A stretch of DNA of 64,000 bases from Agapetus fuscipes (lineage: Eukaryota; Arthropoda; Insecta; Trichoptera; Glossosomatidae), in NCBI GenBank assembly GCA_951799405.1, contig OX637352.1, positions 9,806,820 to 9,870,819 on the forward strand, written 5' to 3'. Shown piece by piece: positions 18,392 to 57,096 of this stretch. The translations under genes and the position numbers were made by a program. The notes below the pieces were generated by a model, which was given only the letters and a program-made list of their open reading frames with translations, ran no database searches and was not told the origin of the DNA. Within the stretch, counting starts at the first letter, position 1. The number at the start of each line of letters is the position of its first letter.

Positions 18392-18560
18392 GTTATGTTT
18401 AAAATGGCTTGCCGGGAACTGATGAGCGACGGCCCGATTAGTTCACACGGCGCAGTTCGGCTGCTTCCGTGATCGTTCGGCTCCGTTCGGCTCACAAAAC
18501 ACACTGTACACTTCGAGATTGTTCTTTCTATGTTATTTTAAAATAACATAACAAAGTTTA
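18392..18560. mobile_element. Short DNA-transposon-like insert in Fam-A
   Basis: Opens GTTATGTTTAAAATGG and closes TTTAAAATAACATAAC, giving inverted ends of about 13 bp. The interior is GC-richer (CGGCCCGATTAGTTCACACG, repeated CGTTCGGCTCCGTTCGGCTC). No coding. Target duplication not clear. Confidence 0.55.
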
Positions 18561-18637
18561 GCAAAAGTTGCAGGGCTTATGTTCATTTGACGTTTTGATT
18601 TTATTACACAAAGTACACAATGCAGCATTGGTAGGCG

Positions 18638-18790
18638 CAAAATTAAAAAAAAAAGGATTATTTTGAAAGATAATATATTTTGTTTAAAAAACTAAAATTA
18701 AGAAACATTGTTTTGTACCACTTGAGTATTTTTTATTGCAAAAACGTTTTCGGTGGGTACTTCCACCATCTTCGGTTGCACTTATATAAT
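18638..18790 (-). mobile_element. AT-rich insert carrying a hammerhead-like hairpin
   Basis: Splits Fam-A copy A12. The only structured part is the minus-strand motif at 18,747-18,775 (see that entry). The rest is A/T-rich. Confidence 0.45.
18747..18775 (-). other. Hammerhead-like motif
   Basis: Minus strand: CCGAAGA, T, GGTGG, loop AAGTACC, CACC with flanking C, then GAAAACG. Compared with the hammerhead core CUGANGA...GAAA, one position differs (U to C). The stem of five pairs GGTGG/CCACC is perfect. Confidence 0.4.
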
Positions 18791-29832: not shown

Positions 29833-30426
29833 TTACCAAATAGGTAATTTACTTAATTTTTGAATTGGTCTCTTTTTAATACCAGAGTCAGTTTTTATGG
29901 ATACTACTCTCAGAATACCATCCGTACCAGGATGTAATTCTGTTACTCTTCCCAATCTCCATCTCAAGGGCGGTTGATTATCCTCCCTAAGCACAACTAA
30001 ATCATTAATTTGTAGTGTAGATGTCGTTAACTGAGTCCATTTCTTGCGAGGTTGCAAAGAATTGAGATATTCATTAGTCCAACGCTTCCAGAAGGTCTGG
30101 AATAGTCGACTTAACAGTTGATACCGATTAACTGCATGGATTGGAATATGATTCAGATCTGGTTCGGGAAGAGCGACCAGTGGTCCTCCGATAAGGAAAT
30201 GACCCGGAGTCAATGGTAACAAGTCATTAGGATCGTCTGATAAGGGTGTCAACGGCCTTGAATTCAGACAAGCTTCGACTTGGATTAATAAAGTAGAACA
30301 TTCTTCAAAAGTGAGGGTATGATTGCCCACTAACTTTTTAAATAAATGCTTTGCGCTTTTTACAGTAGTTTCCCATAGACCACCGTGATGGGGTCCATCT
30401 AAAAGTTTGACTGGCAATCCAGGCAA
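29833..30426 (-). pseudogene. BEL/Pao integrase C-terminal remnant
   Basis: This 197-codon frame encodes the region after the integrase catalytic core: PHHGGLWETTVKSAKHLFKK, then ACLNSRPLTPLSDDPNDLLP and PGHFLIGGPL, all conserved in BEL/Pao. The DUF5641-like C-domain follows (RYQLLSRLFQTFWKRWTNEY, LVVLREDNQPPLRWRLGRV). The zinc-binding and DDE core that should precede PHHGGLWE is absent. Its ATG is artefactual, and it overlaps the end of the upstream frame by about 89 bases in another phase because of the deletion joint. Confidence 0.88.
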
Positions 30427-33400
30427 GTGTTATGCTAGAATCTGTCCACAATGTGGACCTTGTTATCACCAGGTTACTCGTCTCACTAACGCGTTTAAAT
30501 AATTTAGATAATAATAAGGCTGCGTTCAATTCTAACCGGGGTAAGGAGATTTGTTGCAAAGGTGCTACCTTTGACTTGGCACAAAAAAGTTGAGAGTTAA
30601 CTTCGGAAGTCAACTCGTTGCGAGTAACTAAATAGATACATGCTCCGAATGCTCGTGTAGAGGCATCCGCAAAGCCGTGTAGTTCTACGGAGGATTTATG
30701 ATCTGTTCCACATACATGCCGTGCTACATGTATGGAGGCTGCTAGGTTGAACTGATGCACAAAATTACACCATTCAGTTTTTGTTGGAGTAGATAACTCA
30801 TCATCCCATTTACTGCTTTCTTGCCACAGCCGTTGCATAAAGAGTTTGGAAATTATAGTAATGGGAGAGAGCAACCCTAAAGGATCAAACGTTCTGGCTA
30901 TCGCAGATAAAATTGATCGCTTGGTTAAATTTGCTTCGTTACATTCAATGTGTAAATTGAATATCAACGTGTCAGTACTAGGTTGCCACGTTAATCCTAA
31001 AGTTTTATAAGTGTCATGGTTTGCAAAATTTACAGATGAAACACGTTCTTGCAATTGTAGGGAACTATTGGTTGTCCACTTTCTTAATGACATACATGCA
31101 CTATTAAATATTTCAGTAATTTGGGTTTTAATCAAATTGAGCTGATTAATATCGTCGTGTCCAGTTATCAAGTCGTCCATGTACATGTCTGACTCGATAA
31201 CTTGACAAGCTTCAGGGTACTTGTCCCTATTTGTTTGAGCGAGTTGCATGATGCATCTCGTAGCTAGGAAGGGGGCTGAAGCGGTTCCGTATGTAACCGT
31301 GTTTAACTGATACTGGCAAGGCAAGTGAGTCACACTGTCTCTCCATAGGATTCTTTGAAGAGGTCTGTCCTGTGGCTGAATATCTATTTGTCGATACATT
31401 TTCTCCACGTCAGCTGTCATCACCCACCTGGGCGTTCTGAAACGTAACAAAATGTCAAATAGATCTTGTTGCACAGTAGGTCCTATCATTAAAATGTCAT
31501 TCAACGAAAGCCCAGAGGTAGTTCTGGCGCTCCCATTGAATACTACTCTCAGTTTTGTAGTCGTGGAATGTTCTTTTATTACCGCGTGATGCGGAAAATA
31601 ATAAGCAATTTGAGTGTTATGTGGGGGCACAAGACTCATGTGTCCTAAAGCTAAATATTCGGATAAAAAGTCATCATACCGCGCCTTGAGCTGAGGATTG
31701 CGGTTGAGTTTGGATTCTAGCGAGATCAGACATTTTGATGCTCGCGCTAATGAATCGCCTAATACCCCAGGGTCCGACTTCAGACCTATGCGTGTCTGGA
31801 ATCTCCCCTGCGGTGATCGGGTTGTGGTTTGGACGAATAGATCTTCCATAGCCTTTTCTTCTAAAGATTGATGTTTAGTATTCTCGATGGTTTCACACTT
31901 CCAAAAAGCTTCTACCAGTCCGTGAAGACCGGTTGACGCTCCTCTGCTGGGCCCAGACGTCCTTCGGGATCCTCCAGACGCCGCAGTCAGCATCGATGAT
32001 ACGAAGGTAGCTTGCATTGGTGCCAAACCGGTCGCCAACCATCCCAAGTGTGAGGGATAGAACCGGAGCCCTCCCCTTGACAGCGACGTCCGGCTGCAGC
32101 GCAGGATTCTCCAAAAGACGTCTGCGCCGAGCAGCATGGAGACTGCGCCAGCCTTGGCAAACTGTGGGTCTGCCAGGTCGCGCAGTGGTACGGGCGGCTC
32201 ACACCTGAAACTGGTTTGGGGAAGATTTGTAGTTATGGTCTCTACAACAAGGAATGAACATTCAGTTTTAAAACCAGATAATCGAGAAGCTATTGTAGCC
32301 GTAACGGCTTCAGATGAATAACTTGTTTGTTGTTGAATACCTTCAATAGGCATTTTTAACGTAGATTTAGGAAGCTTCAATGAGTCAGCTAGTTCCCTTG
32401 TTAGGAAGTTTGCCTGCGACCCATTATCTAAAACGGCTCGTACAGCTCTTGACGACCCGTCTGAGTCATACAAGTGTACGCTTACAGTTGTTAACATAGC
32501 TTGAACATTATTGGAATTACTAAATGCTGCCAAGGCAATCTTATGGTCTATAGTATGTAACAATGTATGGTGATTGCTTTGACATTTTTTGCATTTGCTT
32601 GAGCTACGGCATTTGTATGCTTGGTGCCCAATGCGAAGACAATTGAAGCATAATCTATTACTTTTTGCGGAATCCCGCCTTTGAGAAACATTTAACTGTA
32701 TGAATTGACTGCATGTGTGAATGTAATGTGGTCCTTTACAGATCGGACACTTGACACCTTCTATTGTAAGCAACGCTTTCTTGGTTGCAGGTTTGCTATT
32801 TGTGGGCTCGAGAGTGTATTGATTATACATTTCTAAATGAGATGCCTTTTTTTTTAGAAATGCCAAAAAATCATTAACCGATTTGTAGTCCTTGTGGGAC
32901 TTCCAATCGCTAATGCTTGGTGGGTCTAATTGCTTCAGAAACTGGTAGATGAGTAATTCATCCCAGTTCGAAGTGTCAACCCCCAAGCTGTTCAGTGCAT
33001 TTAAATTACTACTAATAGTGTTGGTGAAATTGTGAATCTCATTGAATCTTCTCACATTAAATTTAATACTGTGTATGTTATCTAGATGCGTTTTTATTAA
33101 GATCTCCTTGTTGTTGTATCTGGCTTCCAAAATACTATATGCCAGGGGGTAGTTTTTCCCTGATACTTCTAATTGCGCTAAGATTGACTGTACTTGAGGA
33201 GATAACGAATTTTTCAGATACATGAATTTCTCTATATTTGAAATGTTTGCATTATTGTCTATTAAGGCCAAAAATAAATCTCTAAATGTTACCCAGTTGT
33301 CATATTTTCCATCAAAGATCGGAATTGACAATTTAGGTAAGTTCATGGGGTTACAGAATTCATTATTAACTATATGATTAATTTTTAGGCTATTGGCCTC

Positions 33401-33679
33401 AGATTGCTCTAAGAACCCTTCATACTTTGCTATTAAATTCACCAGGACCTCTTCCTGGTGTAGCATTGTTCTATGTAGGTCCTCATCATTGGCCAAAGCA
33501 TCTACATTATGGTTATACAATTCATTAAATTTTGTTATTATTTCTCTGATTTGACATAGTTTTGATTTTACTAGTGAGATTTCTAAATTTTCCTTTAAAA
33601 TATATTGTTCATAGGTAGCTAATCTAGCTGACAATGTCCTCGTCCAATTTGACAGTCTAGTCGTCATTTTGAAACACAA
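30338..33679 (-). pseudogene. BEL/Pao Gag-Pol polyprotein, truncated before integrase
   Basis: A 1,113-codon frame without internal stops. Gag: coiled N-terminus (residues 5-100), capsid-like DUF1759-type region with IPIFDGKYDNWVTFRDLF (119-136). Three Cys/His clusters: CPICKGPHYIHTC (311-323), CFNCLRIGHQAYKC (344-357), CKKCQSNHH (363-371). Protease: VLDNGSQANF (416-425). RT: RVVFNGSA (711-718), TADVEKMYRQI (755-765), MYMDD (832-836). RNase H: FADASTRAFG (1003-1012), SLPRLELNAA (1045-1054), WTDSSITLAWI (1078-1088). The frame then runs into the deletion and ends out of phase with the integrase tail. The first ATG is at codon 1, but MTTRLSNWTR at codon 5 is the likelier start. Residues 487-596 are encoded by a conspicuously GC-rich patch. 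Confidence 0.93.
31890..32220 (-). other. GC-rich patch in the BEL/Pao frame
   Basis: About 330 bp with much higher GC than the AT-rich pol on each side. It encodes DLADPQFAKAGAVSMLLGAD, VFWRILRCSR and PSHLGWLATG, the expected protease-to-RT linker of BEL elements, so it is homologous sequence of different composition. The edges are abrupt. Confidence 0.7.
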
Positions 33680-37900: not shown

Positions 37901-40804
37901 AGATCAAGAGCATCACTGATTCGACAACAATTAACATTATACTACCAAAATGTACGTGGACTACGTAGTAAGATTAGAGATCTGTATGTTCAAGCCTCCA
38001 TAGGTACCGTTGACATTTATGCTCTCACTGAGACTTGGTTAAATAATGATATTTTCTCTTCTGAGCTTGGATTTATAAATCACTCTGTCTATCGCTGTGA
38101 TAGATCTCCATTGACTAGCTCCAAGTCTCGTGGAGGTGGGGTTCTGGTTGCTATCTCAAAAAATATTAAATCTAAATTAATTCCTTGTTTTTCTAAATCA
38201 ATCGAACTATTGTTTGTGATGGCTTTCACTAAGCCAGTGTCAACCATCATAGGATGTCTTTATTTGCCTCCAAACTCAAGTATTGATTTATATAATACCT
38301 TTGTCAACGAAATGGAACTAATCAAATCTAAATTTCCCTCTTCTAAGTACTTACTCATGGGTGACTTTAACCTCCCAAACATAAATTGGAATCTATGCGA
38401 TTCGCCTTCGCCACAGCCCCACTTGTTGAACTTTTCTGAAGCTGATGATATAATAATTGATTTTTGTAATTATCTTAACTTTTCTCAAGTAAACTATATA
38501 TTGAACGACCACCAGCGTACTCTGGACCTGGTTTTCAGTAACATTTCCCAAATTGAGGTTGGTAAATCTGTCGAAGTTCTTGTTCCGGTTGATGGATATC
38601 ATCCCCCTCTTTCCATTACAGTCCCCTATCGCTCTGATCCTAACCTTCAATTCATAAACACCAAACCCAATCTGCATAATGCTGACTTTGATAAATTAAA
38701 CACACTTTTGGATCAGATGGATTGGTCTTTCCTAAAACATGTTAATTTAAACGACACTTCCAACAGATCTTGCAATATTAACAACATTACATCTCTGTTT
38801 TATTCTAAACTTAATGATGCCGTTACTCAATCTATTCCAAATTACCATTCTAATACTCGTTTTTCTACCTATCCAGTTTGGTTTAGTGCTGAACTGATTA
38901 ATGCTATTCGTCGTAAAAAACTCGCTCATATTAAATATATAACCTCACACTCCTCACAAAATTACAATGATTTTAAAACTTTGCGTACTTACTGCAAAAC
39001 CCTTTCTGGCAAGTGCTATAAAAGCTATATAATTGCAGTTGAGACCTCTGTCCAATCGGATATAAAAAAGTTCTGGTCGTTTACTAACTCTCTCCGTAAG
39101 GGTGACTCTGGTATACCCTCTAATGTCTACATGGATCACAATACTGCTGACAATGCTCAGGGCATAGCTGATCTATTTGCTACATTCTTTAAAAGTGTCT
39201 TTACGGATGATTCCACTAACAATTTGTGCAACTTCTCTTCCAACATTGATCTCCATGTATCCAATTTATCGTTTGAAACTTCTGATGTAACTGTTCACAT
39301 TCAACTCATGAAAGGCACAACAAATCCTGGCCCTGATAATATCCCCTCTATATTACTCAAACACTGTGTTAATACTCTATCAGAACCACTTTGTAGTCTA
39401 TTTAACTTATCCCTCTCTTCTGGTATCTTCCCTGACTTATGGAAAGCAAGCTATCTAACTCCTGTTTTCAAGAAAGGTGACAAACATAATGTTTTAAACT
39501 ATAGACCAATAAGCATCATATCTGCGATACCAAAACTTTTTGAAAAACTCATCCTTAGTAAATTATCTTTTATTATAACCAAATCCGTCTCCCCCTTCCA
39601 ACATGGGTTCCTACCAAATAGGTCTACTCTATCTAATCTGTTGGTCTACGTAAATTATATATCTGATGCCATATCTAGGCGCAAACAAGTTGACGTCATC
39701 TATACAGATTTCAGTAAAGCATTTGACTCTGTCTCTCACAAATTACTCCTCTTTAAACTAGAGAAAATGGGAATTGGTGGCCACTTTCTCTCCTGGTTGA
39801 CGTGCTATCTTTCTAATAGACAATTATCGGTAAAGATTAATAACTGCAAATCCTTTACATTCTGCCAAAAGAGTGGTGTTCCGCAAGGCTCCCATTTGGG
39901 TCCCTATTTGTTTCTCTTATTTTTAGACGATATTGCTAATATTTTCCTCGACTGTCATGTTCTTCTTTTTGCGGATGATGTCAAATTTTTTAGAGTGATA
40001 GAATCAAATGATGATAGTCTTAAACTTCAATCATCATTAGATAAACTAGTCGACTGGTGTCACTTCAATAACCTAAACCTTAACATTTCTAAATGCCAAA
40101 TAATGAGATTTTATAAAATTAAAAATCCCTGTTTGCATGATTATTTCATAGGTCAACAAAAGTTAAATAGTGTTTTGGTTATTTCTGACTTAGGTGTTTT
40201 ATTTGATCACAAATTATCGTTTATAAATCATATAAACTATGTTGCGGGTAAGGGAATGAAAATGTTAGGTTTTGTAGCAAGAACAACCAAGGACTTCAAT
40301 AATATTCTTAGTATTAAAACGCTTTACATGTCACTAGTTAGAAGCTCCATGGAATATTGTTCCCCCGTATGGTCACCCTATTATGCCTGTCATATAAAAG
40401 CCATTGAGCGCATTCAACTTAAATTTGTAAAAATTATTAATTTCAAATTAAGAATTCCCGTCTCTGAATTTAATGCACAATATTTACTTAGTATTTTGAA
40501 TCTTAATAGTCTCACTGATAGGCGTTTAATCAATGACCTCATTGTGCTTTTTAAAATTAAACACTCCTTAATTGATTCACCAATCCTACTTTCTGAACTT
40601 AATTTCTCCATCCCTTCATTTATTACCCGCAACTTAGTTCCTTATCGCACTGTATCCACACATACATCTACACACTTCTACAGCCCACTAATACGTATTC
40701 AACGTTTGGGTAATATATACAATGAAATAGATTCTGATACTCATACAAATCCTAAAACATACAAATATAATTTAATTAAGTACTTCAACTCCCATGGTAC
40801 ATAA
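37901..40804 (+). CDS. LINE ORF2: endonuclease and reverse transcriptase
   Basis: The frame is open for about 960 codons. The first ATG is at 38,111, but the APE-type endonuclease begins further up, without an ATG, at LTLYYQNVRGLRSKIRDL (37,931). The true start is therefore lost or unconventional. Endonuclease blocks are ALTETWLN, SRGGGVLVAI, LLMGDFNLPNINW and HQRTLDLVFSN; the final catalytic His is in DGYHPPLSI. The RT has LTPVFKKGDKHNVLNYRPIS, TDFSKAFDSVSHKLLLFKL, SGVPQGSHLGPYLFLLFLDD and LLFADDVKFF (FADD at 39,968-39,979). The C-terminus has RSSMEYCSPVWSPYY. Having no stop over this length argues for a recent insertion. Confidence 0.9.
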   Translation, partial: RSRASLIRQQLTLYYQNVRGLRSKIRDLYVQASIGTVDIYALTETWLNNDIFSSELGFINHSVYRCDRSPLTSSKSRGGGVLVAISKNIKSKLIPCFSKSIELLFVMAFTKPVSTIIGCLYLPPNSSIDLYNTFVNEMELIKSKFPSSKYLLMGDFNLPNINWNLCDSPSPQPHLLNFSEADDIIIDFCNYLNFSQVNYILNDHQRTLDLVFSNISQIEVGKSVEVLVPVDGYHPPLSITVPYRSDPNLQFINTKPNLHNADFDKLNTLLDQMDWSFLKHVNLNDTSNRSCNINNITSLFYSKLNDAVTQSIPNYHSNTRFSTYPVWFSAELINAIRRKKLAHIKYITSHSSQNYNDFKTLRTYCKTLSGKCYKSYIIAVETSVQSDIKKFWSFTNSLRKGDSGIPSNVYMDHNTADNAQGIADLFATFFKSVFTDDSTNNLCNFSSNIDLHVSNLSFETSDVTVHIQLMKGTTNPGPDNIPSILLKHCVNTLSEPLCSLFNLSLSSGIFPDLWKASYLTPVFKKGDKHNVLNYRPISIISAIPKLFEKLILSKLSFIITKSVSPFQHGFLPNRSTLSNLLVYVNYISDAISRRKQVDVIYTDFSKAFDSVSHKLLLFKLEKMGIGGHFLSWLTCYLSNRQLSVKINNCKSFTFCQKSGVPQGSHLGPYLFLLFLDDIANIFLDCHVLLFADDVKFFRVIESNDDSLKLQSSLDKLVDWCHFNNLNLNISKCQIMRFYKIKNPCLHDYFIGQQKLNSVLVISDLGVLFDHKLSFINHINYVAGKGMKMLGFVARTTKDFNNILSIKTLYMSLVRSSMEYCSPVWSPYYACHIKAIERIQLKFVKIINFKLRIPVSEFNAQYLLSILNLNSLTDRRLINDLIVLFKIKHSLIDSPILLSELNFSIPSFITRNLVPYRTVSTHTSTHFYSPLIRIQRLGNIYNEIDSDTHTNPKTYKYNLIKYFNSHGT

Positions 40805-53740: not shown

Positions 53741-53844
53741 TAAAATTGTCTCAAATCAAAAACTAAAAGGAAATATTTGTTGTAATCCTAAACATTATTT
53801 TAAGCTGCATTCGTTAATACATAATCCACCCTAAAAAAAAATAT

Positions 53845-54300
53845 TGTTACGTTTTTCCTTAGGGTTCTTTTAATTAAAACACAAGTTTAACACAAGTTAG
53901 CCATACAGTTTATTTACACAGACTTTCTTACAATAGATTTATATTTAACAGACTTATTCTAACAGATTTATTTTAACACACTTATTTATTTCGTACAGAT
54001 TACATTTATTTTACACCATATTGGTCGCCCTGGCAACTAGATACTCCTCTGTGTGAGTGCTTCGAAGACTGACTCGCTTCAGCCGATTGTCGCCCTTCTT
54101 ATAGCGGAACCTAGGGGCCATTCCAGCCTGCCCTAGAAGGTTCCACTACCACAGTTGTATAGACGGTTCTGGACATATTTATTTCATGAAGAGTCCATTT
54201 CCTACCTACATACACACCTTACAATTACAATCGTCTGGGCCAGAACATTCTCTCAAAACACACGCACACCAACAAGCATCTACCAGTGTATTTCGTTACA
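53845..54300 (-). repeat. 3' LTR of the DEK-bearing element
   Basis: 456 bp, same as 56,385-56,840 by eye. It sits at once next to the stop codon of the internal frame. Confidence 0.93.
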
Positions 54301-54316
54301 TTATCCCCCCCTTAGG
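54301..54316 (-). promoter_or_regulatory. Polypurine tract of the DEK-bearing element
   Basis: Minus strand CTAAGGGGGGATAA directly before the 3' LTR. A hairpin CTGTTCCG-GGG-CGGAACAG lies just upstream (54,317-54,335). The TAA is also the stop codon of the frame. Confidence 0.75.
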
Positions 54317-56019
54317 CTGTTCCGCCCCGGAACAGTCTTTACTTTAAGAAGGTACGGGCAGTTTGACCCACAGTTGCATCCAGTGGTCAGGAAAAATGAC
54401 GTTCCACGGAATTTTCCCCTTAGGGTTTTGCCCGTCATTGCTGGCTGGTGTGGGGGGGGGTGCTTTCCTCTTGGCGGCCGGCATGGGCGCCTTTCCTTGG
54501 TTGGGGGCGCCGCCTTGCGTCCCCGGTCAGCCACCGCTCCTCGGCTCCGCTTGCTCGCCGGCTCCTGCGTCAAAGGATCAGAATCCTTGGTTGTCGGAGC
54601 CGCTCTCCTGCTCGGAAGCGGAGTTCTCACTCTTGCTCTCGTCCTCTGACTCGCTGAGTGGCTTCCTGCCGCGCCATGCTTGGGTCGTCCCTTCTGCTTG
54701 CTCTGCTTGGCTGAGCCCCTGCGGGCGGGGGCGCGGCGCCTGCGGGAGGGAGCGCCCCCTTCCCCCACTGACGGGTCAAAGTCAGAGTCCGCCTCCTGTC
54801 CGGAGCCACTCGGGTTGTACGAGCCATCTGAATCCCCTAATTCATCCCTGCTGACTTTGGGTCCCCGCACTTTGGTTTCCGGATCTGTTTCATACTCCTC
54901 GTTAGAGTAACCTCTCTTGACAATAGCAGCAGCGGACCTTCTGGGCCTGCCTCCCGTGGCCTCGCCGCGGTCAGTCACCGGCCTCTCCTTCATCAGCCCC
55001 CTGGCGTGCGAGGAGACCTGCTTTGGCAGCAGCAGGAAGCCCACCACCCTGCTGACCAGCTCCGTGGGCGCGCCCCTCTTGTCCAAGCCCAGCTTCTCGC
55101 ACAGCGTCCGCAGCTGCTTGGGCTCCAGCTTCTGCACCTCCTCCAGCTTGGCCTTGTGCTCAGGCGTGTCCTTCTCAAACTCGTAGCCCTTGAACTTCTT
55201 TTTGTTGCGCTTGATGAGGTTCGTGCGGCACAATTGATTGTACCGGAACTTGAGGTCCTCCATCTTGAACCTGGAGATGGCCACCTCCACGTCGGGGATG
55301 TAGTCGATGGGGATGCCCCGGCCCGCGGGCACGGGCACCGGCGGCTCCACGGCCTTCTTCTTCTTGAGAGCCTCCTCCACGGCCTCCGCCGCCTTCTTCT
55401 TGGGCGCGGGCTTCTTCTTCACACTGTTGGCCTTCTTGGCCTTGCCCTTCTTGTCCTTGGCGTCCTCATCCTCCTCCTTGGCGTCCGTCTCCTCCTTCGC
55501 ATCCTTGTCAGCCTTCACCTCGGCCGAGTCACTCTTGCCGTTTTCAGCCGACTTGACATCTTTGCCATCTTTGTCATCTTTGCTGTCAGCTGCGTCCTCA
55601 GCCTTGAGCTGGCCGTTGTTTTTGGCCTTCAGGTCTCCCTTCCCCAACTTCTGAGACAACTCATCCTCAGTTGACATATCGGCCTTTTTGTCATCCTGAT
55701 TATCACTTAATTTTACACTATCAGTGTCCACCGACATTTTTAAGGCTAGGTTTTTAGCCCTCTCCTCCTTCCAACCAGCTAGGTCTTCCCTCAAGCTCTT
55801 GAAGTTGGCAGCCATCTTTGTTTTAAACTCTTCCACGGCTCGCTCGCGGTCCCCTCCAGACGCCATGACAAAATATGCCGGGTCTTCGCCTGACTGTTCC
55901 AAGGCCTCCATGAGGCGTGCTTGTAAGGCCGCCTTCCCTCCTGAGGTCTCCAGGTCCCTCTCCAGAAGCTCATTCTTAAGCTCATAGGCTTTGAGGTCCT
56001 TGATGTTCACCTTAGCCAT
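54301..56019 (-). CDS. SAP-DEK-like fusion protein in an LTR retrotransposon
   Basis: A 572-codon frame starting ATGGCTAAGGTGAACATC. Residues 5-42 are a SAP-type DNA-binding helix pair (NIKDLKAYELKNELLERDLE ... KAALQARLMEAL), a module also seen in retroelement Gag starts. Residues 97-225 are an acidic/lysine-rich linker. Residues 233-335 resemble the DEK core (its SAP-box region): GRGIPIDYIPDVEVAISRFK, KFKGYEFEKDTPEHKAKLEE and LRTLCEKLGLDKRGAPTELV. GRPRRSAA (357-364) and an acidic Ser stretch follow, as in DEK. DEK is a chromatin and splicing-associated nuclear protein. The last 120 or so residues lie in a shifted frame (see findings), and the last few codons translate the polypurine tract. 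The GC content is far above that of flanking DNA. No introns are visible, so it looks like a captured mRNA. Confidence 0.75.
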   Translation of the reverse strand: MAKVNIKDLKAYELKNELLERDLETSGGKAALQARLMEALEQSGEDPAYFVMASGGDRERAVEEFKTKMAANFKSLREDLAGWKEERAKNLALKMSVDTDSVKLSDNQDDKKADMSTEDELSQKLGKGDLKAKNNGQLKAEDAADSKDDKDGKDVKSAENGKSDSAEVKADKDAKEETDAKEEDEDAKDKKGKAKKANSVKKKPAPKKKAAEAVEEALKKKKAVEPPVPVPAGRGIPIDYIPDVEVAISRFKMEDLKFRYNQLCRTNLIKRNKKKFKGYEFEKDTPEHKAKLEEVQKLEPKQLRTLCEKLGLDKRGAPTELVSRVVGFLLLPKQVSSHARGLMKERPVTDRGEATGGRPRRSAAAIVKRGYSNEEYETDPETKVRGPKVSRDELGDSDGSYNPSGSGQEADSDFDPSVGEGGAPSRRRRAPARRGSAKQSKQKGRPKHGAAGSHSASQRTRARVRTPLPSRRAAPTTKDSDPLTQEPASKRSRGAVADRGRKAAPPTKERRPCRPPRGKHPPPHQPAMTGKTLRGKFRGTSFFLTTGCNCGSNCPYLLKVKTVPGRNSLRGG

Positions 56020-56384
56020 TTTTTATTTTAACAAAAATTTAAATTTACTTCAAAATAATTTACTTCAAAACAAATTATTTTACAAAAAAAATATTTTTAA
56101 ATTTCAAATAATGATATTAGATAATGATTATTTACTTTGCTTCGTCAGATCGGCTAGCTTTACTAACACTAGCACAATATTATTAACACGTTATCTATGC
56201 ACACTTCAATCAAATTTTTAGCGGGTAACCACACGATCGTTTTTAATTCAAGTTTAATCAGTTTTATTTAAAACTTTTTTTTTTTTTATTCATTAGTTTT
56301 TATTATGTTGTCCAGAAATATTTTTCAATAGTCTTAAGCACAGATTTTTTTGGTACTTGGTTTTAAATCTCACACCGACACCAT
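56020..56384 (-). other. Leader of the DEK-bearing element, with primer site
   Basis: 365 bp, AT-rich. The minus strand right after the 5' LTR reads A-TGGTGTCGGTGTGAGATTT. The plus-strand complement GGTTTTAAATCTCACACC then GACACCA looks like the T-arm and 3' acceptor end of a tRNA with CCA. So it is a long primer-binding site; the tRNA is possibly Leu-type, but that is not certain. Confidence 0.7.
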
Positions 56385-56840
56385 TGTTACGTTTTTCCTT
56401 AGGGTTCTTTTAATTAAAACACAAGTTTAACACAAGTTAGCCATACAGTTTATTTACACAGACTTTCTTACAATAGATTTATATTTAACAGACTTATTCT
56501 AACAGATTTATTTTAACACACTTATTTATTTCGTACAGATTACATTTATTTTACACCATATTGGTCGCCCTGGCAACTAGATACTCCTCTGTGTGAGTGC
56601 TTCGAAGACTGACTCGCTTCAGCCGATTGTCGCCCTTCTTATAGCGGAACCTAGGGGCCATTCCAGCCTGCCCTAGAAGGTTCCACTACCACAGTTGTAT
56701 AGACGGTTCTGGACATATTTATTTCATGAAGAGTCCATTTCCTACCTACATACACACCTTACAATTACAATCGTCTGGGCCAGAACATTCTCTCAAAACA
56801 CACGCACACCAACAAGCATCTACCAGTGTATTTCGTTACA
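56385..56840 (-). repeat. 5' LTR of the DEK-bearing element
   Basis: Promoter-side LTR for minus-strand transcription. Identical to the other LTR by eye. Confidence 0.93.
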
Positions 56841-57096
56841 ATATAATCTAATCTTATCTAAGTTGCAAAGATATTTTACGCTGGAGATTCACTTTACATA
56901 CATTTTCACAAGCAGCCATGTACAAGTTCGCGCTTGCACATGCCGCATGTGAACCCACAACATAAAAACCAAATCTTAAATGGAAAAACACCCTACAACT
57001 CTTGCCGTCCTTCCCTGAAACAGGGGTGGTTATGGAAGAGTGAACCATTTTTACAGCATGGGTGGTCAACCACATACCAACTTATAAATCAAGGAA
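56841..57096 (-). repeat. Fam-A copy A31
   Basis: Full length. Its tail ATATAATCTAATCTTATCTA begins with the ATAT target site, so the LTR element inserted at or in the Fam-A microsatellite tail. Confidence 0.8.

Follow-up and report, generated by a model that had tools for sequence, protein, structure and literature searches.

A retrotransposon family that carries a host chromatin gene within its own coding sequence was found in the trichopteran Agapetus fuscipes. The stretch that was analyzed, here called the window, comprises 64,000 nucleotides (nt) of contig OX637352.1 (NCBI GenBank assembly GCA_951799405.1, positions 9,806,820 to 9,870,819 of the forward strand). It contains at 53845–56840, on the minus strand, a small element with two long terminal repeats (LTRs), in which the N-terminus of Gag is fused in frame to a spliced copy of the host gene DEK. 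Very probably, a transduction of a host gene into gag, similar to those of retroviruses, became a non-autonomous LTR family of its own that is moved in trans. An initial annotation, made from the sequence alone, had already proposed an LTR element with a DEK-like host gene. This proposal withstood the analyses, as the similarity to DEK was strong and the Gag of two related elements has capsid-type sequence instead.

The Insert Originates From the Host DEK Gene

The coding region of the element is a single frame of 572 amino acids. Its three top matches among solved structures were all Protein DEK (E 5.6e-12 to 2.8e-11), and they spanned residues 173–348, 172–348 and 232–335. The similarity to DEK had been assigned to residues 233–335; the DEK-derived part turned out to be larger and runs from residue 95 to the 3′ junction at 54442. 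Residue 95 aligns to the first methionine of a Danaus protein and is DEK's own start methionine. The database relatives of the part behind Gag were DEK proteins, the named ones being lepidopteran (Danaus, Eumeta, Phthorimaea, Scirpophaga), and the DEK core of the element shared just 55–58% identity with them. Taken alone, the DEK gene would place the host among insects close to Lepidoptera, and this low identity may indicate Trichoptera or an early lepidopteran lineage. A Pfam search of the frame retrieved only one of the two domains for which a check had been proposed: SAP was present (PF02037, residues 6–41, E 4.2e-9), while the search gave no DEK match and DEK_C (PF08766) was absent.

The DEK_C model had three matches in the assembly of 618 Mb, and the match on C11 (C11:946574) was the host DEK gene. 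Ten coding exons with AG/GT borders were placed, and the start of a further exon was also visible. The spliced host exons aligned to the insert from the ATG through the end of exon 10 with no intron left, and eight of the nine aligned stretches had nucleotide identities of 93–96%. The stretch of exon 3 had 3 mismatches and 48 gap columns. Because ten spliced exons match the insert, the intron-bearing DEK gene on C11 is its source, and the alignment directly revealed the intron loss that had been predicted for a captured mRNA. The joins of exons 1/2, 5/6, 6/7, 7/8 and 9/10 are intron-free. The 3/4 join probably enters the first bases of exon 4, ahead of the acidic deletion, and at the 2/3 join the window copy has 6 additional nt, which are absent from 5 of 11 other copies. 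The two remaining DEK_C matches (C9:6431727 and C1:1336652) are probably other proteins with that domain; the tested DEK proteins had no tblastn match there.

The insert extends from 7 nt upstream of the DEK ATG to 3 nt inside the exon that follows exon 10, and it is not a complete copy of the coding sequence. It lacks the acidic tract that exons 3 to 5 encode. Around the 8/9 join 40 nt are absent, and together with one extra base later this means that about 30 codons are not read in the DEK frame. The host gene encodes DEK_C downstream of the captured part, and the element therefore does not contain it. The pseudo-SAP/SAP module of DEK is present, with 4 residues missing from its first half, the pseudo-SAP half.

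SAP-type modules occur in Gag and in DEK alike, and the similarity could therefore be due to chance or to a DEK-like domain that is native to the Gag family. The probability of this explanation is close to nil. Chance was rejected based on the matches in the structure database and on the exon-by-exon nucleotide match to host DEK, and a native domain was rejected because in two related elements of the same genome (L044 and L045, see below) SAP and coil are followed by capsid-type sequence.

Structure of the Window Element

The LTRs (TGTAAC...GTAACA), which the initial annotation had described as identical and as enclosed by an ATAT duplication, were aligned, and the flanks were inspected. Both descriptions were correct: the 456-bp repeats do not differ at any position, they have TG...CA ends on the element strand, and ATAT adjoins both ends of the element. 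The interior of 2,084 bp contains the single long minus-strand frame that had been reported, and its stop codon directly adjoins the 3′ LTR. A primer-binding site follows the 5′ LTR at a distance of 1 base, and a polypurine tract immediately precedes the 3′ LTR, both called from position and sequence. The features are as follows:

53841–53844, target-site duplication ATAT, left copy
53845–54300, minus strand, 3′ LTR, 456 bp, same sequence as the 5′ LTR
54301–54313, minus strand, polypurine tract AAGGGGGGGATAA, in which the frame has its final codons and its stop (read from the sequence)
54301–54441, minus strand, 3′ tail from the parent retrotransposon, beyond the DEK junction
54301–56019, minus strand, single open frame, 572 amino acids, fusion of Gag N-terminus and DEK
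54442–55744, minus strand, captured spliced DEK mRNA, acidic tract lost (host-gene alignment)
55015–55326, minus strand, DEK pseudo-SAP/SAP module, residues 232–335, 4 residues less than in the host gene
55738–56019, minus strand, Gag N-terminus, residues 1–94, final two codons from the DEK leader
55897–56004, minus strand, Gag SAP domain, residues 6–41 (Pfam)
56020–56384, minus strand, leader from the 5′ LTR to gag
56369–56383, minus strand, primer-binding site TGGTGTCGGTGTGAG (by position)
56385–56840, minus strand, 5′ LTR, 456 bp
56841–56844, target-site duplication ATAT, right copy

All hallmarks of an LTR retrotransposon are therefore present, i.e., paired LTRs, target-site duplication, primer site and polypurine tract. 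The 572 residues had no Pfam match to protease, reverse transcriptase or integrase and no pol domain; two weaker matches were below their respective cut-offs. The window element is a non-autonomous LTR retrotransposon. It was also verified that the insert is GC-rich in an AT-rich setting, with a GC content of 0.57 in 54001–56000 compared to 0.26–0.45 in the remaining 2-kb steps of the window.

By eye, the right flank (56845–57080) resembles, in reverse-complement orientation, a repeat that is also present in the host DEK region (at about 18500–18720 of the reverse-complemented locus), and the element thus probably borders on a dispersed repeat.

A Single Capture Founded a Large and Young Family

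The assembly was searched with the LTR (40 of 1089 candidates scored), which yielded 41 matches and a set of 14 copies with two LTRs (window, L009–L020 and L026). The LTR pairs were identical in 11 of these copies. They differed at 1 position in L011 and at 2 positions plus 1 gap base in L014, and the count for L026 (23 mismatches, 26 gap bases) was disregarded, its 5′ LTR match being truncated. An exact 4-nt target duplication was present in 13 of the 14 copies (3 of 4 positions match in L013), and exact duplications were also found at all seven further 8-kb loci with a single LTR. The target duplications and the identical LTRs indicated that the element replicates like a normal LTR element. 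A gag-DEK frame of 528–662 amino acids was retained in 12 of the 14 copies, the gag start being lost in L014 and L026. By eye, 17 of the 20 exact target duplications of L009–L028 and the window fit RTAY (ATAT, ATAC, GTAT, GTAC), the others being ATAA, TTAT and GGGT. A target-site preference of the family is likely.

A search with the Gag start (150 of 1281 candidates scored) gave matches that were 97–100% identical, of which 143 were located in open frames that are 500 amino acids or longer and 7 in shorter frames. A 31-mer of the DEK core was present at 300 places with up to 3 mismatches, probably including the host DEK exon, which has 2 mismatches to it. The LTR/primer-site junction occurred at 154 places with up to 2 mismatches. 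The reversed controls of both patterns gave 0 matches. With 2 mismatches allowed, the 5′ Gag-DEK junction was shared by all 24 loci that span it and the 3′ DEK junction by all 14, with one different base and a longer C run in L011 and L013; five overlapping loci were excluded from these counts. That the fusion recurs across the assembly, which the initial annotation had left to copy counting, was thus evident from the 5′ junctions, the Gag starts and the DEK cores. As both junctions are common to all covering copies, one single capture founded the family, and repeated captures were rejected for the loci that were read.

Two copies, L053 and L056, have retained a longer Gag coil, as in L044 and L045, ahead of the same DEK junction, and L056 also has more host-like DEK residues. 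Therefore, L056 is either a near-basal member of the family or a recombinant. No difference separates the interiors of the window copy and L017, and their LTRs have 9 differences, all of which are confined to positions 253–445 of 456, as expected from a strand transfer that joins two packaged RNAs.

Further length variants were observed. L016 has, close to where its DEK part ends at the 3′ side, a 294-nt in-frame insertion that repeats DEK sequence, resulting in a frame of 662 amino acids, and frames of 652–687 amino acids recur among the scored gag matches. On the plus strand of C25, three gag matches near 1509013, 1512323 and 1515633 are spaced by exactly 3,310 bases and are possibly a tandem array of the element.

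The Gag Start Is Shared With Relatives That Have Capsid-Type Sequence

Residues 1 to about 92 of the frame represent the N-terminus of a Gag protein and consist of SAP and a coil. The Gag-like, SAP-type start that had been noted from the sequence alone was corroborated by the Pfam match and by two relatives. These were found in an assembly search with a Gag capsid piece, in which 150 of 929 candidates were scored and the best two, L044 and L045, were fetched. Their Gag proteins start with MAKVNIKDLK and MATKVNIKDLK, respectively, and from just upstream of gag their DNA is 88% (L044, 212 columns) and 86% (L045, 217 columns) identical to the window element. In L044, one frame runs from SAP via the coil into capsid-type sequence; SAP passes the Pfam cut-off, and the Retrotrans_gag match (E 0.002) is below it. 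In L045, the SAP stretch and the capsid are in separate frames, and Retrotrans_gag, CCHC and protease all pass the cut-offs. Because both relatives have the same SAP start before capsid-type sequence, the Gag start of the window element is an ordinary Gag N-terminus of this genome. Their LTRs end with CGTAACA like those of the window element, and an LTR comparison of the window element with L044 and L045 gave no significant match. The parent element was probably a SAP-Gag LTR retrotransposon of the Ty3/gypsy type. Of the features considered for that type, the 4-bp duplication is present in the element; Retrotrans_gag, CCHC and aspartic protease are present in the relative L045 and absent from the element, and these domains are not unique to Ty3/gypsy.

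As the element has neither pol nor capsid, it must, judged from its coding content, be copied in trans and depend on a helper, and the SAP-Gag relatives are probable candidates. The LTR/primer-site places were inspected for copies with a different interior. A total of 100 of the 154 places were listed, of which 54 adjoin a gag match and 46 do not; ten of the latter were fetched, and the gag-DEK join was present in all ten. Of the 51 listed places on C1–C9, 46 have an exact DEK core downstream. L046 and L056 carry DEK, two further places are presumed carriers based on gag-match frames of 572 and 577 amino acids, and L057 is a 5′ fragment, with neither gag nor DEK in the 1.9 kb that were read. 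Among these 51 junctions, no copy was seen in which capsid or pol replaces DEK.

Possible Functions of the DEK Part

In the accessible parts of a study on human DEK (PMC12263440), nucleosomes are bound via the SAP module that is retained in the element, and binding persists without the C-terminal domain. The contact residues K124, K125, R153, K158 and R168 had been mutated together, and R107 and R116 were also mutated. In the structure-match alignment, K124, K125, K158 and R168 are opposite K270, R271, R304 and K314 of the element. R153 is opposite E299, which is E in host DEK too, R107 is in an alignment gap, and R116 is opposite Q. By this comparison, the part of DEK that was kept is the one relevant for nucleosome binding, in an altered form.

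An AlphaFold model of the whole frame (3 sequences) had a mean predicted local distance difference test (pLDDT) score of 45.5. Helices were predicted at residues 6–24 and 28–43 (SAP), 58–97 (coil) and several at 244–329, with block means of 60–82 at 281–330, and the model was deemed too weak for a fold search. When the DEK module was modeled alone, the overall score was 53.9, with blocks of 63–82 at module residues 61–110, and the top five Foldseek matches were all DEK entries (E 0.04–0.19). The most likely function of the Gag-DEK protein would be attachment to chromatin via the SAP domains of its Gag and DEK parts.

It is tempting to speculate that DEK serves the element, i.e., that the Gag-DEK protein enters helper particles by the Gag coil and keeps the RNA or the integration complex attached to nucleosomes, either in place of the SAP of Gag or in addition to it. 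We put this forward tentatively. It would fit that the retained part is the nucleosome-binding module of human DEK and that the C-terminal domain is dispensable there (PMC12263440, as far as accessible), that four of the five jointly mutated residues face basic residues, that the best five Foldseek matches are all DEK, and that DEK was not replaced by capsid or pol at the C1–C9 junctions. The residues opposite R153, R107 and R116 do not fit, the Foldseek E-values are weak, and the pseudo-SAP half is shortened and was not modeled with confidence. An extended version, in which the protein fixes helper particles to nucleosomes and steers or speeds integration, and in which the identity of about 94% to the host DEK mRNA also shields the element, because small RNAs against it would also strike host DEK, is unlikely.

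Alternatively, the capture would be real and DEK would be passive cargo that only fills the space between the cis signals, the open frame reflecting the youth of the copies. This is quite possible. The copies are indeed young, as judged from the identical LTR pairs, the comparison of the window copy with L056 revealed no constraint (see below), the DEK frame is partly broken and DEK_C is lost, and the AlphaFold confidence is low across most of the protein. In contrast, seven of eight distinct indels within the frame have a length divisible by three, and in the leader this is true of 8 of 32 (Fisher p 0.002), a test in which the leader gap placement is uncertain and the events are not fully independent. 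Also speaking against passive cargo are the 12 of 14 copies with a retained gag-DEK frame and segregating-site ratios of 0.34 for gag and 0.45 for DEK, which are based on small counts like those of two later stretches (0.53 and 0.71). The evidence is thus mixed, and selection on the Gag-DEK protein is possible.

Proposed Origin of the Family

The hallmark of a transduction is present, a spliced host cDNA that is fused in frame to gag and replaces the structural and pol genes. In the proposed scenario, a SAP-Gag LTR retrotransposon, probably of Ty3/gypsy type, would have transduced a spliced host DEK mRNA. The 5′ part of gag was joined in frame just ahead of the DEK start codon, and the 3′ join was made 3 nt inside the exon following exon 10. 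The chimera lost capsid, nucleocapsid and the whole of pol, and retained what is needed in cis, namely LTRs, primer site, leader and polypurine tract. A single founder, for which SAP-Gag relatives probably provided the copying machinery in trans, then expanded into an independent, recently active family with the DEK core at about 300 places. The capture itself is proposed to have occurred by template switching inside the particle. It is rather doubtful that it instead occurred by read-through and splicing, with an element upstream of or in DEK and gag spliced to a DEK exon, and not by template switching between packaged RNAs. Such a route would agree with a possible splice acceptor, TTTCCCACAG, identified by eye at the end of the host sequence upstream of the 5′ junction, and with the position of the 3′ junction just 3 nt past the exon boundary, where the next exon starts with CCA. 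However, the 5′ junction is not located exactly at the acceptor, and the 3′ junction lies beyond the exon end.

Several observations weigh against a helper-dependent transduction family with a maintained Gag-DEK protein. No autonomous element was found among the 51 C1–C9 junctions, the other LTR/primer-site places being covered in part, and the start of the 3′ tail without a preceding DEK had 0 matches in the assembly with up to 3 mismatches. The autonomous partner with the same LTRs that had been envisaged was therefore found neither at the places checked nor via the tail pattern. The primer sites of L044 and L045 differ from that of the window element, and these relatives, with sequence read as far as the protease, are presumed to be autonomous. 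Template switching is presumed, as no DEK-free parent that would provide the parental sequence at the joins was found at the places checked or with the tail pattern. The DEK frame is broken again by one further base change near the end of the insert, and the pseudo-SAP half combines its 4-residue deletion with low structural confidence. Comparison of host and element gave ratios of non-synonymous to synonymous substitution rates (dN/dS) of 0.22–0.24 (349–351 codons) and 0.20–0.30 (first 203–205 codons), which take in the host branch. Within the family the ratio was 0.57 for window/L015, 0.84 for L015/L056 and 1.27 for window/L056 (4 synonymous and 18 non-synonymous differences). Low divergence by itself would keep many frames open.

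Two other elements were observed in the window. A BEL/Pao-type coding region is located at 29833–33679 on the minus strand, with Peptidase_A17, DUF1759 and RVT_1 in a frame of 1113 amino acids and DUF5641 in the next frame. A non-LTR retrotransposon frame of 897 amino acids with endonuclease and reverse transcriptase is located at 38111–40804 on the plus strand.

Comparison With Known Systems

A search of the protein database for other gag-DEK fusions (7982 best candidates scored) yielded 5 matches, all with DEK_C, one of them unnamed and none with a Gag SAP listed, and no LTR element with a DEK passenger was found in the literature of one open-access library. In the accessible parts of reviews, host gene capture by LTR elements concerns mostly gene segments in plants and retrocopies in animals (PMC13317346, PMC8232201, PMC5408686). 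In A. fuscipes the donor gene, the junctions and about 300 core places are available together in one assembly. This makes it possible to test whether a captured host gene can join the life cycle of a retrotransposon, and how a host silences an element that carries a piece of its own chromatin gene.

In acutely transforming retroviruses, the N-terminus of Gag is fused to a spliced host mRNA, pol is lost, and a helper is needed. The window element resembles them in its gag-host fusion, the loss of pol and the predicted dependence on a helper. It differs from them in that it belongs to a vertically inherited retrotransposon family and that the passenger is a chromatin protein. The relatives L044 and L045 share the genome, the Gag N-terminus and the LTR end with it, while in them coil and capsid-type sequence follow (in L045 also CCHC and protease), the primer site is another one, and the LTRs have no significant match. 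The maize element Bs1 carries segments of a plasma-membrane ATPase gene and of two other host genes (PMC13317346 and PMC5408686, accessible parts), and is thus likewise an LTR element whose coding sequence includes transduced segments of host cDNA. In contrast, the Gag-DEK element is found in an insect, it contains one 1.3-kb DEK cDNA at about 300 core places, and the source gene and both junctions can be read in one assembly. Animal LTR-mediated retroposition also places cellular mRNA into LTR-element cDNA, with template switching at microsimilarities (Tan et al., 2016, as summarized in the accessible parts of PMC5408686 and PMC8232201). These cases are described there as retrocopies, whereas the Gag-DEK chimera has itself become a transposing family of many copies, in which the frame is fused. 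Taken together, gene transduction by LTR elements is known, and, within the scope of these searches, a multicopy animal family founded on a Gag-DEK fusion is a new variant.

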